Part shown: one piece after another, positions 25,721 through 32,453 of the stretch
How the letters are laid out: each line of letters begins with the position of its first letter
Numbering within the stretch: the stretch's first letter is position 1
NCBI RefSeq assembly: GCF_004300825.1
Contig: NZ_CP036250.1
Location: forward strand, 3,173,001 to 3,237,000
Origin: Egicoccus halophilus
Lineage (GTDB): Bacteria; Actinomycetota; Nitriliruptoria; Nitriliruptorales; Nitriliruptoraceae
DNA: 64,000 bases
Direction: 5' to 3'
Notes under the pieces: model-generated
Database searches by the model: none
What the model was told of the DNA's origin: nothing
Seen by the model: the letters and a program-made list of their open reading frames with translations, nothing else
Made by a program: the position numbers and the translations under genes

Positions 25721-28700
25721 TCAGCCGCCCACCGGCTCCCCGACGGTCTCGGGACGGCCCGGCTCGGCGGCCGGGCCGTCCTGCACCGCCTGGGTCGGTG
25801 CGGCGCTGGCCCGCTGCTCGAGCGCTTCCACCGCAGCCTGGTCGCGCAGTCGTTCGGCGACGACCTTGGTCACCGCGTCGGGCCCCATGGTGACCCCGTA
25901 GAGGACGTCGGCGATCTCCATGGACCGCTTCTGATGGGTGACCATGATGATCTGCGCGTGACCGCGGAAGCTGCGCACGACCCGCAGCAGACGCTGCAGG
26001 TTGACGTCGTCGAGGGCGGCGTCCACCTCGTCGAGCACGTAGAAGGGGCTCGGCCGGGCGCGGAAGATGGCGAAGACGAAGGCGAGCACCGTCAGCGACC
26101 GCTCACCGCCCGACAGCAGCGACAGGCGGGTGACCTTCTTGCCGGGCGGCCGGGCCTCGACCTCGATGCCCGTGACGAGCAGGTCGTCGGGCTCGGTGAG
26201 CACCAGTCGCCCGTGCCCACCGGGGAACACGGTGGCGAACGTCAGCTGGAACTCCCGGGCGATGTCGTCGAAGGCCTCGCGGAAGACGGCCCGGATGCGG
26301 TCGTCGACCGCGACGACGACCTCCTCGAGGTCCTTCTTCGACCGGCGAAGGTCGTCGAGCTGGTCCGAGAGGAACGCGTGCCGCTCCTCGAGCGCCTTGA
26401 ACTCCTCGAGCGCCAGCGGGTTGACCCGGCCGAGCAATCCGAGCTTGCGCACCAGCACGTCCTCGCGCTCGGCCAGCGCGGCCTCGTCGTAGGAGACGGC
26501 GTCGGGGTGCTCGGCGCGGACCTCGGCGGGCGAGAGCGAGAACTCGCCGCGCAGGCGATCGGTGAGCTGCTGCAGCCGGTTGGTGACCTCGGCCCGCCGC
26601 AGTTCGGCGGCATGGCGCCGTTCCCGGAGTACCTCGAGCGCCTTGGCCGCGCGGCCCGCCTCGTCGCGCACCTGACCGAGCTGACTCCGCGCGCGCCCGA
26701 GCTCGGCCTGCACCCGGTCCCGCTCGGCGGCCGCGGACTGCACGGCCCGCGTCAACGCCTCGGTGGCCGTGCGGGCCACCAGCGCCAGCTCACCACAGCG
26801 CACGATGGCCTGTCGGCGCAGCTCGCGTCGGCGGGCGGCCTCGGCCAGCTCGGCCTCGACCTCGTCCGCCTCGGCCCGCAGCCCCTGTGCCTGCAGCTCG
26901 AGATGACGGACCTGCTCGGTGGTGCGCTCGAGGTGGACGCGGGCCTCGAGCTCGCGTTCGCGGGCGAGCTCGACCCGGTCGTCGAGCTCGATGGCGGTCT
27001 CGTCGGGCCCCTCGTCGAGCTCCTCGTCGTCGAGCTCGGCGTCGGGGCCGCGGCCGTGCAGCTCGGACAGGGCCGCGCGGTCGCGCTCGAGGACGGTCGC
27101 CAGCTCCTCGCGCTGCCCGGCCACGACGGCCCGCTGGCTCGCGAGCGCATCGAGCTCCTTGTGCAGGCGCGCGAGCCGCTCGGCGGCGCCGGTGATCGCC
27201 GCGTCGGACTCGTTGATGCGCTCGGTCGCCGCCGCCAGACGGCCGCGCGCCTCGCGCAGGCGTCGCTCGGCACCGTCGCGCTGCCCGCGCAGCTCGTCGA
27301 GCTCGGCCGCCGAGGCCGCCGCGTCGCGCTCCGCGTCGTCGGCGGCCGTCGCGGTCACGACCGCCGAGCGTTCCGGGGACGCACCACCGCGGAAGCCCGC
27401 GGGGCCGGCGACGTCGCCCTCGGGGGTGACGAAGGTCAGCGCCGGCTCGTCGCCGTGCAGGCGCACCGCGAGGTGCCAGTCGGGCACCATCCAGGTGTCG
27501 GCCAGGACCTGCCGCAGCGCGTCGACGACCGTCTCGGCGTCCTCGACACCGGCCGCCGGGGCGAGCAGGTCGGACACCGCCTCGGCGCCTGCGTCGTGTA
27601 GGCGTTGTCGGCGTGCCGGGCCGGTGTCGCGCGGTGCGCGTGGTGCCCGGGCGGCGAGGACGGTCGCCGGGCCGGGCGCGGCGGCGCGCAACCAGGCGAC
27701 GGCGTCGGCCGCGTCCTGGCCCGTGCGGACCACGACCGCCTCGCCCAACGCCCCCAGCGCGGCGGCGAGTGCCGCGTCGTTGCCGCCCTCGACCCGCACG
27801 TGGTCGGCGAGGTGTCCGAGCAGGCCGTCGAGCCCGGCGGCGAGCAGCGCCGCCGTCCCGCCCCCGGTCTCGGCCAGTGCGGCCCGCAGGGCCTCGGCCC
27901 GCGCCGCCTGCGAGGACCGGCGGGCGTCGACCTCGCGGAGCCGGGTGACCAGGTCGTCGACCACCTGCTGGGCCTCGGCCACCTCGTGCTCGGCGGCCTC
28001 GAGGGTGTCGGTGAGCGCGACCTCGGAGACGTCGAGCTGCTGGACCTCGCCCTGGACGGTGGCGACCTCGGCCTCGGCCTCGGCGACGCGGGTGTCGAGG
28101 CCGTCGAGGGTCGAGGCGACCCGGCCGAGCTCGCCCTCGGCCGACGCCACGGCGCCGCGCAGGGCCGACACCTCCCCCTCCCAGCGCAGGACCCGTTCGC
28201 GTTGCTCCGCGCGCCGGCGCCGCTGGGCCTGCACGGCCTGCTCGTGGGCACGCCGGGCCTGCTCGGCCTCGCGTCGGGCGGCCGCCGCGGCCTCGAAGCG
28301 CTGCCGGTCGGCGTCCCGGTCACGGCCACGTTCGACCCGTTGGGCCTCGAGACGCTCCGCCTGGGCGCGCAGCTCGGCCGGAGGTCGACCCGCCAGTGGC
28401 TCCTCGGCGTACTCGACCAGGTGGCGCCGCTTGGCCTCGACGAGGTCGCTGGTCCCCTTCAACCGCTCCTGCAGCGACGTCAGCCGGTAGTAGGTCCGCT
28501 GCGCCTGCTCGGCGGCGGGACCGAGGCGGGCGAGCTCGCGTTCGAGGCCCCCCTGACGCTCGCGGAGCGTGGCCAGCTGGCGATCGGCCTGCTGCAGAGC
28601 GGTCGTCGTCTCGCCGTCGTCGGTCGCCTCCGAGGCGGCGAGGCGGGTCAACCGGTCGAGCTCGCGTGCGGCCCGCCGCACCTTGACGTCGCGCAGCTCC

Positions 28701-29389
28701 GCCTGCAGCTGCGCGTAGCGGTCGGCCGCCTCGGCCTGCCGCTCCAGCGGCCGCAACTGCCGGCGCAGCTCGCGCAGCACGGTCCGCAGCTTGTCGATGT
28801 GGCCGTCGACCTGGTCGAGCTTGCGCAGGGCCCGCTCGCGGCGACGCCGGTGCTTGAGGATGCCGGCCGCCTCCTCGATGTAGCGGCGGCGCTCCTCGGG
28901 CTTGGCGTTGAGGATCTCGTCGAGCTGCCCCTGCCCCACGATCGTGTGCAGCTCCCGGCCGAGTCCCGTGTCGCTGAGCAGCTCCTGGACGTCGAGCGCA
29001 CGGACGTCCTGCCCGTTGATCTGGTAGGCGGCGTCCCCGTCGGCGTGGATGGTGCGCGCGACCCGGACCTCGCTGAACTCGGCGGCACTCGCCGCGGTGC
29101 CCAGCCCCGCGCCCGACAGGCGACCGTCGGCGTTGTCGATGACGATCTCGACCCGGGCCTGGTTCGCGCGGTTGCGCGTCGGCGATCCGGCGAAGATGAC
29201 GTCGGACATCGACCCGCCGCGGACCTTCTTGGCCGAGTGGGTGCCCAGCACCCAGGCCAACGCGTCGACGACGTTGGACTTGCCCGAGCCGTTGGGGCCG
29301 ACGATGACCGTGATCCCCGGCTCGACCTCGAGCAGGGTCTTGTCGGCGAACGACTTGAAGCCGCGCATGGTCAGGGACCTGAGAAACAC
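25721..29389 (-). CDS. smc: Chromosome segregation ATPase SMC
   Basis: SMC condenses and segregates chromosomes with ScpA and ScpB. The ABC-type head is split: Walker A GPNGSGKSN near residue 35 at the N end, and the signature LLSGGERSL and Walker B FYVLDEVDAALDD near the C end. Two long Ala/Glu/Arg/Leu coiled coils flank a globular hinge in the middle (roughly 510-680). The 1222 residues match the family. The GTG start gives the usual hydrophobic N terminus (MFLRSLTMRGFKSFADKT) and has GGAGG four bases upstream. ftsY follows; a small coiled-coil gene precedes it. Confidence 0.97.
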   Translation of the reverse strand: MFLRSLTMRGFKSFADKTLLEVEPGITVIVGPNGSGKSNVVDALAWVLGTHSAKKVRGGSMSDVIFAGSPTRNRANQARVEIVIDNADGRLSGAGLGTAASAAEFSEVRVARTIHADGDAAYQINGQDVRALDVQELLSDTGLGRELHTIVGQGQLDEILNAKPEERRRYIEEAAGILKHRRRRERALRKLDQVDGHIDKLRTVLRELRRQLRPLERQAEAADRYAQLQAELRDVKVRRAARELDRLTRLAASEATDDGETTTALQQADRQLATLRERQGGLERELARLGPAAEQAQRTYYRLTSLQERLKGTSDLVEAKRRHLVEYAEEPLAGRPPAELRAQAERLEAQRVERGRDRDADRQRFEAAAAARREAEQARRAHEQAVQAQRRRRAEQRERVLRWEGEVSALRGAVASAEGELGRVASTLDGLDTRVAEAEAEVATVQGEVQQLDVSEVALTDTLEAAEHEVAEAQQVVDDLVTRLREVDARRSSQAARAEALRAALAETGGGTAALLAAGLDGLLGHLADHVRVEGGNDAALAAALGALGEAVVVRTGQDAADAVAWLRAAAPGPATVLAARAPRAPRDTGPARRQRLHDAGAEAVSDLLAPAAGVEDAETVVDALRQVLADTWMVPDWHLAVRLHGDEPALTFVTPEGDVAGPAGFRGGASPERSAVVTATAADDAERDAAASAAELDELRGQRDGAERRLREARGRLAAATERINESDAAITGAAERLARLHKELDALASQRAVVAGQREELATVLERDRAALSELHGRGPDAELDDEELDEGPDETAIELDDRVELARERELEARVHLERTTEQVRHLELQAQGLRAEADEVEAELAEAARRRELRRQAIVRCGELALVARTATEALTRAVQSAAAERDRVQAELGRARSQLGQVRDEAGRAAKALEVLRERRHAAELRRAEVTNRLQQLTDRLRGEFSLSPAEVRAEHPDAVSYDEAALAEREDVLVRKLGLLGRVNPLALEEFKALEERHAFLSDQLDDLRRSKKDLEEVVVAVDDRIRAVFREAFDDIAREFQLTFATVFPGGHGRLVLTEPDDLLVTGIEVEARPPGKKVTRLSLLSGGERSLTVLAFVFAIFRARPSPFYVLDEVDAALDDVNLQRLLRVVRSFRGHAQIIMVTHQKRSMEIADVLYGVTMGPDAVTKVVAERLRDQAAVEALEQRASAAPTQAVQDGPAAEPGRPETVGEPVGG

Positions 29390-29434: not shown

Positions 29435-29623
29435 TCAGGTCCGGGCAGGCTCGCGGGCGTCGACCTCGCGGCGGGCGTCGACCGACGTCACGCGGTCTCC
29501 CAGCGCCTCGGCCTCCGCGAGCGCCCGCTCGAGTTCCGCGACCCGCTGACGCAGGGCCCGGACCTCGTCGAGGAGCCGGAGGCTCGACGGAGACGCATGG
29601 GTGCCGAGCAGGGCCTTGCCCAT
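29435..29623 (-). CDS. 62-residue coiled-coil protein upstream of smc
   Basis: The frame begins MGKALLGTHASPSSLRLLDEV and continues as a Leu/Ala/Glu/Arg heptad helix (about 20-45) with a charged end. The ATG has an excellent GGAGG site seven bases upstream, better than most genes here. It sits 45 bases upstream of smc on the same strand. I do not recognise a named family. The coiled coil and the position suggest a small structural or SMC-linked partner, which is inference. Confidence 0.75.
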   Translation of the reverse strand: MGKALLGTHASPSSLRLLDEVRALRQRVAELERALAEAEALGDRVTSVDARREVDAREPART

Positions 29624-29847: not shown

Positions 29848-30693
29848 TCAGATCATGCACTGAGGACAGTGGAAGGTGTGCACGCCCTTGCGGATGCGCG
29901 TGCGCGCGATCGGCTTGCGGCAGCGGTGACAGGGCAGTCCCTCGCGCCCGTAGACGTGCAGGTGCTCGGCCGCCTCGCCGTCGTCGTCGCTGGAGACGTC
30001 GGCGTCGGACTCGTCGAGGCCGGAGCCGGCCGCCTTCATGGCCGCCTGCAGCACCTCCTGCATCGCGCGGTAGAGCCGGCGGACCTCCTGGGTGGACAGC
30101 GACGCCGACTGGCGGTCGTGGCGCAGCCCCGCCTCCCAGAGGATCTCGTCGCTGTAGACGGGCCCGATACCGGCGATCACCGTCGGGTCCATCAGCAGCA
30201 GCTTCAGCGGCTGGTCGGCCGCGTGCAGGAACCGCCCGAACTCCATCCACGTGGGGTTGTCGTCGAGTGGGTCGAGCGCGTCCGGCGCGACCTCGGCCGC
30301 CTCGAGGGCCTGGTCGGCCGCCACCACACCCGTGCGTGCGCTGACCTGTCCCCCCGGTTCGGTCAGGTGCAGGGCGTAGTCCACCGTGAAGTCGACCGTC
30401 AGGTGCGTGTCGGCCCCGGCGGTCTCGGCCGCGGCCTGACGGTGCAGGTAGCCCTGTTCCCCCGGGTCCAGCAGCCAGGTGTGCGCGTCGTCGAGGTCCA
30501 GGAACAGCACCCGCCCCCGCCGGCGGACGGCTTCGATCGTGCGACCCGACAGCGCCGTGACGAAGTCCTTCGCCCGGCCGTGCAGGGACGTGACCAGGGC
30601 GTCGGTCTCGACGACGACGTCCTTGACCTTCTTGCCGACGACCTCTTTCTCCAGGTCCTTGCGCAGCACCTCGACCTCGGGCAGCTCGAGCAC
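29848..30693 (-). CDS. Fpg/MutM-fold protein lacking key catalytic residues
   Basis: The length (281), N-terminal ELPEVEVLRKDLE block, helix-two-turn-helix region and C-terminal zinc finger (C255, C258, C276, C279) place it in the Fpg/Nei glycosylase family, and it occupies the mutM position between rnc and smc. In canonical Fpg the nucleophile is the proline after Met; here residue 2 is leucine (GTG-CTC). The Lys of RRGK is R61, the Asn of GIGN is P178, and the zinc-finger Arg that holds the DNA phosphate is V271. Only the Glu at position 3 remains. The GTG start has GGGAGG five to six bases upstream, and no alternative start restores a Pro. It is probably a DNA-binding protein without classic glycosylase chemistry. 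Confidence 0.85.
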   Translation of the reverse strand: MLELPEVEVLRKDLEKEVVGKKVKDVVVETDALVTSLHGRAKDFVTALSGRTIEAVRRRGRVLFLDLDDAHTWLLDPGEQGYLHRQAAAETAGADTHLTVDFTVDYALHLTEPGGQVSARTGVVAADQALEAAEVAPDALDPLDDNPTWMEFGRFLHAADQPLKLLLMDPTVIAGIGPVYSDEILWEAGLRHDRQSASLSTQEVRRLYRAMQEVLQAAMKAAGSGLDESDADVSSDDDGEAAEHLHVYGREGLPCHRCRKPIARTRIRKGVHTFHCPQCMI

Positions 30694-30757
30694 CGGGTCC
30701 TCCCTTCGTCGGCACGGGACGCGACGCCCTCGACGCCCGTCCCGGATCGGCGGGAAA

Positions 30758-31489
30758 CTAGCCGACCCGGTCGCGTCCGTCGGTGTCGACGCGCTCCACG
30801 AGCGATCGGTACGCCTCGCGGGCGGCGGTCTGTTCCGCCTGCTTCTTGCTGCGGCCGCTCCCACGGCCGACCACGTCGCCGTCGACGAGAACGGTGGCCT
30901 CGAACGTTTTCTCGTGGTCGGGACCGCTGTCGGCCACCTCGTAGCGCGGCAGCATGTCGAAGCGCGCCGCGCTCAACTCCTGCAGGGCGGTCTTGTAGTC
31001 CAGGGCCGCGTCGCGTCGCGCCAGCTCGGCCAGGCGCGTCGAGAACAGGCGCTGCACCAGGTCGTACGCGGTCGCGAAACCGCCGTCGAGGTAGGTCGCA
31101 CCGATGACCGCCTCGAGGGTGTCGGCCAGGATCGAGTCCTTGTCGGCCCCGCCGGAGCCGGCCTCGCCGCGCCCCAGGCGCACGAAGCGACCCAGCCCCA
31201 GCTGGCGCGCGATGCCGGCCAGCGAGCCGGTCTTCACCGCCGCCGAGCGCACCTTGGCCAGCCGCCCCTCCTGCTCGTCGGGGTGGGCGGAGTAGATCTC
31301 GTCGGTGACCACGAGCGCCAGCACCGCGTCACCGAGGAACTCGAGACGCTCGTTGGTCCGTGCCCCACCGTTCTCGAACGCCCACGACCGGTGCACCAAC
31401 GCCTGCTCGAGCAGCGCCGGATCGTCGAAGTGGACGTCGAGGAGCGCCGCGAGCTCGGCCGCCGGCGGGAACCCGGCCGGCGAGCTCAT
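30758..31489 (-). CDS. rnc: Ribonuclease III
   Basis: RNase III cleaves double-stranded RNA in rRNA and mRNA processing. The catalytic signature NERLEFLGDAVLALVV is near residues 45-60, the second acidic cluster is in DTLEAVIGATYLDGG, and the C-terminal double-strand-binding domain has DYKTALQELSAARF and GSGRSKKQAEQTAAREAY. Length 243. The ATG at 31487-31489 follows a GGGGTGG stretch; a GTG two codons upstream is an alternative. rpmF and DUF177 lie upstream, the usual rpmF-rnc order. Confidence 0.96.
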   Translation of the reverse strand: MSSPAGFPPAAELAALLDVHFDDPALLEQALVHRSWAFENGGARTNERLEFLGDAVLALVVTDEIYSAHPDEQEGRLAKVRSAAVKTGSLAGIARQLGLGRFVRLGRGEAGSGGADKDSILADTLEAVIGATYLDGGFATAYDLVQRLFSTRLAELARRDAALDYKTALQELSAARFDMLPRYEVADSGPDHEKTFEATVLVDGDVVGRGSGRSKKQAEQTAAREAYRSLVERVDTDGRDRVG

Positions 31490-31889: not shown

Positions 31890-32453
31890 CTACTCGTTGG
31901 GCAGATCGAGGTCCGCCAGTGCGGCCCAGCGTGGATCGGGGGCCTCGTCGGGCCGGTGCCCGCAGTCGCGCTGGTTGCGGTCGGTGCCGCACTCCTCGCA
32001 CAGGCCCTGGCAGTCCTCGCGGCACAGCACGCGCAGGGGCAGGTCGATGAGCAGCGCGTCACGCACCATGACCGACAGGTCGATCGCGGTGCGGTCGTCG
32101 ATCAGCTCGTAGCCGGGGTCCTCCTCGTCGTCCTCCTCGCGCTTGGCGGGGTCGACGAAGAGTTCGGCGACGTCGCTGTCGACGCGCACGGCCTGGTCCA
32201 CCAGGCAGCGGCTGCAGGGCAGCTCGAGGTCGGCGCCGACCCGTCCCCGGACCAGGATGCCGTCGACGACGGCATCGAGGTGCAGGTCGAGGTCGATGTC
32301 ACTGCGGATGGCACCGTCGGCGGCGCCCCACGACTCCTCGCCGAACTCCTCCACCGCGGCGGCATGCGACAACGCCCGGGTGGCACCCGGGTGGTCGACG
32401 AGCTCGATGACGGGGACGCGCACGAACGAAGGCCTTGCTCGGAGGACGGACAT
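31890..32453 (-). CDS. DUF177/YceD family protein
   Basis: YceD-type proteins are encoded next to rpmF across bacteria and are linked to 23S rRNA or L32 homeostasis. The 187-residue protein has the family's RGRVGADLELPCSRCL pattern with two conserved Cys, an acidic middle, and a C-terminal Cys cluster (CREDCQGLCEECG, then DCGH) that looks metal-binding. The ATG at 32451-32453 is chosen, but its ribosome site is weak and a GTG about ten codons in is possible. The 268-base gap upstream holds a set of short GGGCGAC repeats and a possible TACCGT box at 32601-32606. Confidence 0.88.
   Translation of the reverse strand: MSVLRARPSFVRVPVIELVDHPGATRALSHAAAVEEFGEESWGAADGAIRSDIDLDLHLDAVVDGILVRGRVGADLELPCSRCLVDQAVRVDSDVAELFVDPAKREEDDEEDPGYELIDDRTAIDLSVMVRDALLIDLPLRVLCREDCQGLCEECGTDRNQRDCGHRPDEAPDPRWAALADLDLPNE

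Follow-up and report, generated by a model that had tools for sequence, protein, structure and literature searches.

Introduction

In the 8-oxoguanine glycosylase/AP-lyase MutM (Fpg), the proline at codon 2 serves as the nucleophile. Lys60, His74, Asn174 and Arg264 contact the lesion phosphates, and Met77, Arg112 and Phe114 form the intercalation triad; these residues are numbered throughout as in the Bacillus MutM.

Several proteins of the same fold depart from this scheme. NEIL3, a vertebrate member of the Fpg/Nei family, carries an N-terminal valine in place of the proline and, once Met has been cleaved off, uses the Val amine for catalysis (PMC11323726). In the mycobacterial Nei2, the proline is dispensable for base excision, which needs Glu3 and Lys51 (PMC11323726). 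Zincless fingers are found in NEIL1 and in plant, fungal and Mimivirus members (PMC3188539), and NEIL1 has glycosylase activity despite lacking zinc. A precedent for an Fpg-type fold outside DNA base excision is set by RqcH/Rqc2, whose NFACT-N domain is akin to Fpg/MutM/Nei (PMC6514570).

The gene described here, hereafter X, lies in a stretch of 64,000 nucleotides from Egicoccus halophilus, referred to as the window. Its product resembles MutM in fold, length, H2TH domain, finger cysteines, LPEVE motif and rnc-mutM-smc position, but lacks P2, K60, H74, M77, R112, F114, N174 and R264, is acidic instead of basic and scores below both MutM equivalog cut-offs. Like NEIL3, it has no N-terminal proline; unlike NEIL3, it begins with Met-Leu, whose trimming is unlikely, and the rest of the site is lost. 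Some X orthologs share with the zincless Fpg/Nei proteins the loss of all zinc cysteines and the retention of the finger arginines, but differ from the active NEIL1 in having no catalytic site. The NFACT-N domain differs from X in architecture, and X matches it weakly over the H2TH region, below the Pfam cut-off.

Genomic position and fold of X

X is encoded on the minus strand at 29848..30693 and specifies a 281-aa protein with the Fpg/MutM fold but without most of the catalytic residues. Its GTG start at 30693 is preceded at 5 bases by a Shine-Dalgarno motif, AGGGAGG (30699..30705, minus strand), recognized from the sequence. As the initial annotation had it, the gene occupies the mutM position: it sits between rnc (RNase III; 30758..31489, minus strand), which lies upstream across a gap of 64 bases, and smc (25721..29389, minus strand) downstream, as the intact MutM relatives do. 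With yceD (DUF177; 31890..32453, minus strand) farther upstream, the conserved gene order reads yceD-rpmF-rnc-X-smc. Because intact MutM has identical neighbours, this order, which is the only hint at RNase III or SMC as a partner, was not taken as evidence for a functional link to either. A 62-aa ORF (MGKALLGTHASPSSLRLLDEVRALRQRVAELERALAEAE...; window 29435-29623, minus strand), conserved family-wide and resembling a short coiled coil, lies between X and smc.

No alternative start restores the proline. The in-frame GTG upstream of X yields MPCRRREDPVLELPEVE, with no Pro before Glu3, and in several orthologs (e.g. L016, L018, L019, L024 and L036) a stop codon precedes the corresponding GTG-Leu start by no more than a few codons.

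The Fpg/MutM fold of X is agreed on by Pfam, a PDB sequence search, an AlphaFold2 model (pLDDT 90, pTM 0.85) and Foldseek, for which the best PDB match of the model is the MutM of B. stearothermophilus (1r2y, TM 0.83-0.85). Both the Fapy_DNA_glyco N-domain (PF01149, 6.9e-19) and the H2TH domain (PF06831, 7.1e-18) exceed the Pfam cut-offs. The H2TH domain covers residues 139-226 (30016..30279, minus strand) and contains a long helix with invariant Q202, E203, R205, R206, R209, E213 and K220. It is followed by the former lesion-capping loop (residues 226-240; 29974..30018, minus strand), which is acidic and modelled with low confidence. The zinc finger (29857..29931, minus strand) retains its four cysteines, C255, C258, C276 and C279, together with the invariant R257 and R259, yet falls short of the zf-FPG_IleRS model. 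The H2TH and zinc-finger frame that had been read from the sequence is thus present.

X falls short of family-specific models. For the two MutM equivalogs (NF002211 and TIGR00577) it scores 175.7 against a cut-off of 212 and 159.8 against 203.3, whereas an intact locus relative (L116, 307.6) and the second MutM of E. halophilus (275) pass the MutM cut-offs. Nei equivalogs are missed by far (58.6 against 252 for NF007763; 58.7 against 400 for NF040775). A weak match to Pfam NFACT_N over the H2TH domain (9e-5; 21.8 bits against a cut-off of 31) is unspecific for X, since intact MutM relatives show the same weak match, and an NFACT-type function was rejected on this ground. Ribosomal S13 is also weakly matched in the profile search (0.007).

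Loss of active-site residues across Nitriliruptoria

The four substitutions named in the initial annotation are exactly as stated. Codon 2 of X, CTC (30688..30690, minus strand), specifies Leu where MutM has its nucleophile Pro; Arg61 (30511..30513, minus strand) stands at the place of Lys60, in a column that is unconstrained in the clade; Pro178 (30160..30162, minus strand) replaces Asn174, turning GxGN into GxGP; and Val271 (29881..29883, minus strand) replaces the zinc-finger Arg264. Further losses accompany them. The phosphate-binding His74 has become Asp76 (30466..30468, minus strand), so that none of the four lesion-phosphate contacts is kept (R61, D76, P178 and V271). In the intercalation triad, M77 is replaced by E79, and EPGGQVS stands in place of DVRKFG, the reading loop that carries R112 and F114; alignment of R112 and F114 within this rebuilt loop is approximate, but the absence of the DxRxFG motif is plain. 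Glu3 and Glu6 are retained. In a conservation comparison, the old pocket showed no newly acquired acid, Lys or His that is invariant in the clade and unique to it.

Of 60 relatives within the class Nitriliruptoria, nearly all have an ortholog of X in the same gene order, and the 59 that were tabulated (33 from the family and order of the window, 26 from other families) carry the same kinds of change, a recurrence well beyond what chance would give. Many of these relatives are metagenome assemblies, so that gene absences are soft. Pro2 is missing from 58 of the 59. Residue 2 is Leu in 32 of the 33 family/order orthologs, encoded by CTC, CTG, CTT or TTG, and Thr (20/26) or Ser (5/26) in the other families. 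R112 and F114 are replaced in all 59 orthologs, N174 in 57 (Pro in 28/33 of the family/order, Asp in 21/26 elsewhere) and R264 in 57, the remaining two keeping it; the His74 position is Asp or Glu in 33/33 of the family/order. Glu3 is kept in 33/33 and Glu6 in 32/33 of these close orthologs, but Glu3 is lost in 24/26 of the others. By comparison, P2, K60, H74, M77, R112, F114, N174 and R264 are all present in each of the 19 intact Pro-bearing relatives at the locus. The view that Fpg-family members without the proline are rare does not hold here: the trait spans the class and appears again in sister lineages.

The single exception at residue 2 in the family of the window is L042 (1138-1983; genome G014), which has Pro2 but has lost all the remaining contacts. 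This is likely a chance reversion at a site that is no longer constrained.

About 25 columns of the alignment are invariant across the class, and the ORF, of 272-283 aa, is retained in nearly every class genome. The zinc cysteines are lost in Salsipaludibacter and a relative (L040/L060) and in L053, L055-L057 and L072, that is, in at least two separate Nitriliruptoria groups, as well as in L149 and in L140/L144/L157; the two finger arginines are kept in all these copies, R257 and R259 being invariant even in the Nitriliruptoria that lack the cysteines. In the main set used for comparison, none of the intact locus relatives (19 with Pro, 14 with Met-Glu) has lost a zinc cysteine.

Charge and selection

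X has a net charge of -16 and a pI of 5.1. Median net charge is -13 for the family/order orthologs and -8.5 for those of other families; intact locus MutM and the second MutM of the same class both stand at +7. A class-wide acidic proteome was therefore rejected as the source of this acidity, since the second MutM in the same class is basic. By domain, the N-lobe, H2TH domain, capping loop and finger of X carry -8, -6, -9 and +7, compared with means of +6.5, -0.8, -3.5 and +5.3 in the intact locus relatives.

Pairwise dN/dS of X ranges from 0.08 to 0.28. Between genomes G000 and G003, X gives 0.218, and the intact second MutM of the same pair gives 0.217. These estimates indicate that X is under strong purifying selection, equal to that acting on the intact paralog.

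A second, intact MutM

Five Fpg/Nei paralogs are present in the E. halophilus genome. One of them, MutM2 (L061; C1:2488614), is an intact MPELPEVESVRRQL MutM with every catalytic residue in place. Of the 61 class genomes, 53 have its counterpart, as do 32 of the 33 of high quality. Outside the class, a second intact MutM (220-359 bits) accompanies the degenerate locus copy in 10 of 11 genomes. None of such quality occurs in the 16 genomes whose locus copy is intact, where other hits reach at most 110 bits. It thus appears that repair is carried out by the second, intact MutM elsewhere in the genome. This second gene is not strictly required, because two genomes keep a degenerate copy without one having been found: G067, in which no second MutM was seen, and G036, the exception within the class (L057/L069; 2.1 Mb, 96% complete), in which the degenerate locus copy is the sole Fpg-family protein detected.

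Relatives outside the class and order of loss

Among the closest relatives beyond the class are MutM proteins that are fully intact at the rnc-smc locus (L115, L116, L128, L135 and others), copies that kept Pro but lost the other residues (L118, L125, L149, L219, L223, L225 and L226) and Acidimicrobiales copies without Pro (L140, L144 and L157). The order yceD-rpmF-rnc-X-smc is common to degenerate and intact relatives, so these locus copies are orthologs. Phylogenetic trees nest the degenerate copies among the intact locus copies and away from the second-locus MutM. In two genomes (G111 and G125), the degenerate MutM at the rnc-smc locus (L225 and L226) stands in tandem with a divergent Fpg-type gene, VPELPELDVLAENL.

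The trees were computed in quick mode, and the clades tested were picked after tree inspection. A single loss of Pro was rejected by the AU test of one Pro-less clade (p 0.0017), a group named after seeing the tree, while a single origin of degeneration was not rejected. The second MutM of the Acidimicrobiales/ATN2 group is of a different type, with 48% identity to L061 against 66-70%, which hints at two separate events of catalysis loss. The Pro-keeping but otherwise depleted lineages (L118, L125, L219 and L149) show the order of loss, of which the simplest version would be that the lesion contacts went at the outset, that Pro followed on more than one occasion, and that zinc went last and only in some lineages.

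Discussion

Judged from its sequence, X is by descent the mutM of the rnc-smc locus and lacks the functional features of MutM that we tested. Loss of the proline alone would not prove it inactive, because the mycobacterial Nei2 excises without it; the argument rests on the whole set of residues, from which we infer that X very probably neither excises 8-oxoguanine nor forms a Schiff base. It is also likely that lesion DNA is no longer docked in the old cleft. The overall picture probably corresponds to an ancient pseudo-MutM, a pseudoenzyme retained for a non-catalytic function. In an ancestor that Nitriliruptoria share with neighbouring lineages, the vertically inherited rnc-mutM-smc MutM would have ceased to recognize lesions and given up its glycosylase/AP-lyase chemistry; this loss probably came after 8-oxoguanine repair had passed to a second MutM, and X would then have been kept by strong purifying selection for its non-catalytic role.

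The nature of this role is suggested by residues that are invariant in the degenerate copies, conserved in the intact locus copies and different in the second-locus MutM: W149, Q202, E203, R205, R209, E213, K220 and R259. Because these residues of the locus lineage are conserved yet differ in the second-locus MutM, X may bind a protein partner through surfaces common to the lineage, namely the Q-E-x-R-R-x-x-R-x-x-x-E face of the long H2TH helix and the RxR of the finger, a proposal to which we give about even odds. The same helix and finger residues could instead be structural, forming salt bridges and no interface. The broader view, in which the class and its neighbouring lineages share a MutM-derived pseudoenzyme family that gave up DNA binding and catalysis and took on an acidic protein-binding role at rnc-smc, and in which the ancestral active MutM may already have had such a non-catalytic function, has an equal chance of being right or wrong.

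The initial annotation had proposed a repurposed DNA-binding protein or an enzyme with different chemistry. Repurposing fits our results, but DNA binding is weakened because the charge is inverted, and with it go the phosphate contacts and the intercalation triad. X could still dock DNA or RNA through its H2TH domain and zinc finger without cutting: both folds are predicted with high confidence, the finger carries +7, and R257 and R259 persist where the zinc cysteines are gone. H2TH-type helices also bind RNA elsewhere, and X weakly matches NFACT_N and S13, although the former match is common to intact relatives. We consider such docking unlikely, given that K60, H74, N174 and R264, which hold the phosphates, are all replaced, one of them by an acid in every family/order ortholog, that the zinc cysteines have been lost repeatedly, and that every domain but the finger, from the N-lobe through the H2TH domain to the capping loop, is negative; the acidic former cleft argues against docking in the manner of MutM. 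Some nucleic-acid binding is nevertheless possible, given Glu3, Glu6, the four cysteines and the basic finger. For a different chemistry we found no positive evidence. A glycosylase of unspecified substrate might use another nucleophile, the N-terminal Met amine here and Thr or Ser in other families (residue 2 in 25/26 of their orthologs), or a water activated by Glu3. NEIL3 sets a precedent for a non-Pro N-terminal amine (PMC11323726), and Glu3 and Glu6 are almost invariant in the family/order. This reading is very improbable: Lys60 and all residues that contact the phosphates or read the lesion are lost, the formerly positive cleft is acidic, Glu3 is missing from most of the class outside the family of the window, and no clade-specific invariant acid, Lys or His was found in the old pocket. 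Moreover, Met-Leu is a poor substrate of methionine aminopeptidase, so that Leu2 would not end up at the N-terminus and the amine is displaced by the additional residue.

Still less probable is that X is simply a MutM made redundant by the arrival of the second one and now decaying into a pseudogene. The presence of that second MutM, the loss of most catalytic residues and the disappearance of the zinc cysteines in some lineages would all suit decay, but the ORF keeps its length in nearly every genome, the invariant columns extend class-wide, and X is retained in small genomes, including the one of 2.1 Mb where it is the only Fpg-family protein found. A dN/dS equal to that of the intact MutM2 led us to reject a pseudogene. 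The chance that the changes are artefacts of sequencing or of start-codon choice is close to nil. Leu (CTC) and Pro (CCC) do lie one base apart, but seven further active-site positions are changed as well, and Leu recurs from several codons in the family/order, as Thr or Ser does elsewhere. Class-wide conservation and the upstream frames of the orthologs refute both forms of error, in line with the earlier view that the changes were no sequencing slip.

Genomes receive the annotation of MutM, a textbook enzyme, by fold, and here a class-wide clade with the fold and the locus of MutM should not carry the glycosylase label: X should not be annotated as a glycosylase because the nucleophile, the phosphate contacts, the triad and the equivalog scores all fail and the basic surface is absent. 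A search of the open-access literature returned no report of this clade. As X was retained after the loss of catalysis, under selection as strong as that on the working paralog, it can be tested directly whether MutM has a hidden non-enzymatic function in this lineage. The series of lineages, from intact copies through those that lost the contacts but kept Pro to those that lost Pro and finally zinc, is a natural experiment in the dismantling of a glycosylase.

A MutM lineage starting with Met-Glu-Leu-Pro

A separate actinobacterial lineage has an rnc-smc MutM whose other catalytic residues are essentially all intact but whose proline codon is missing, giving the N-terminus Met-Glu-Leu-Pro. 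Its members are L119, L120, L122, L123, L126, L129, L130, L142, L145, L146, L148, L150, L160 and L191-L215, from genomes G069-G074, G080 and relatives. The seven genomes of this lineage that were checked yielded no further MutM with a score comparable to this one. A stop codon lies immediately upstream of the start in several of them (e.g. L126 and L142). With such a start, the N-terminal Met amine would therefore take the place of Pro1, and these proteins are natural candidates for a MutM with a Met nucleophile.
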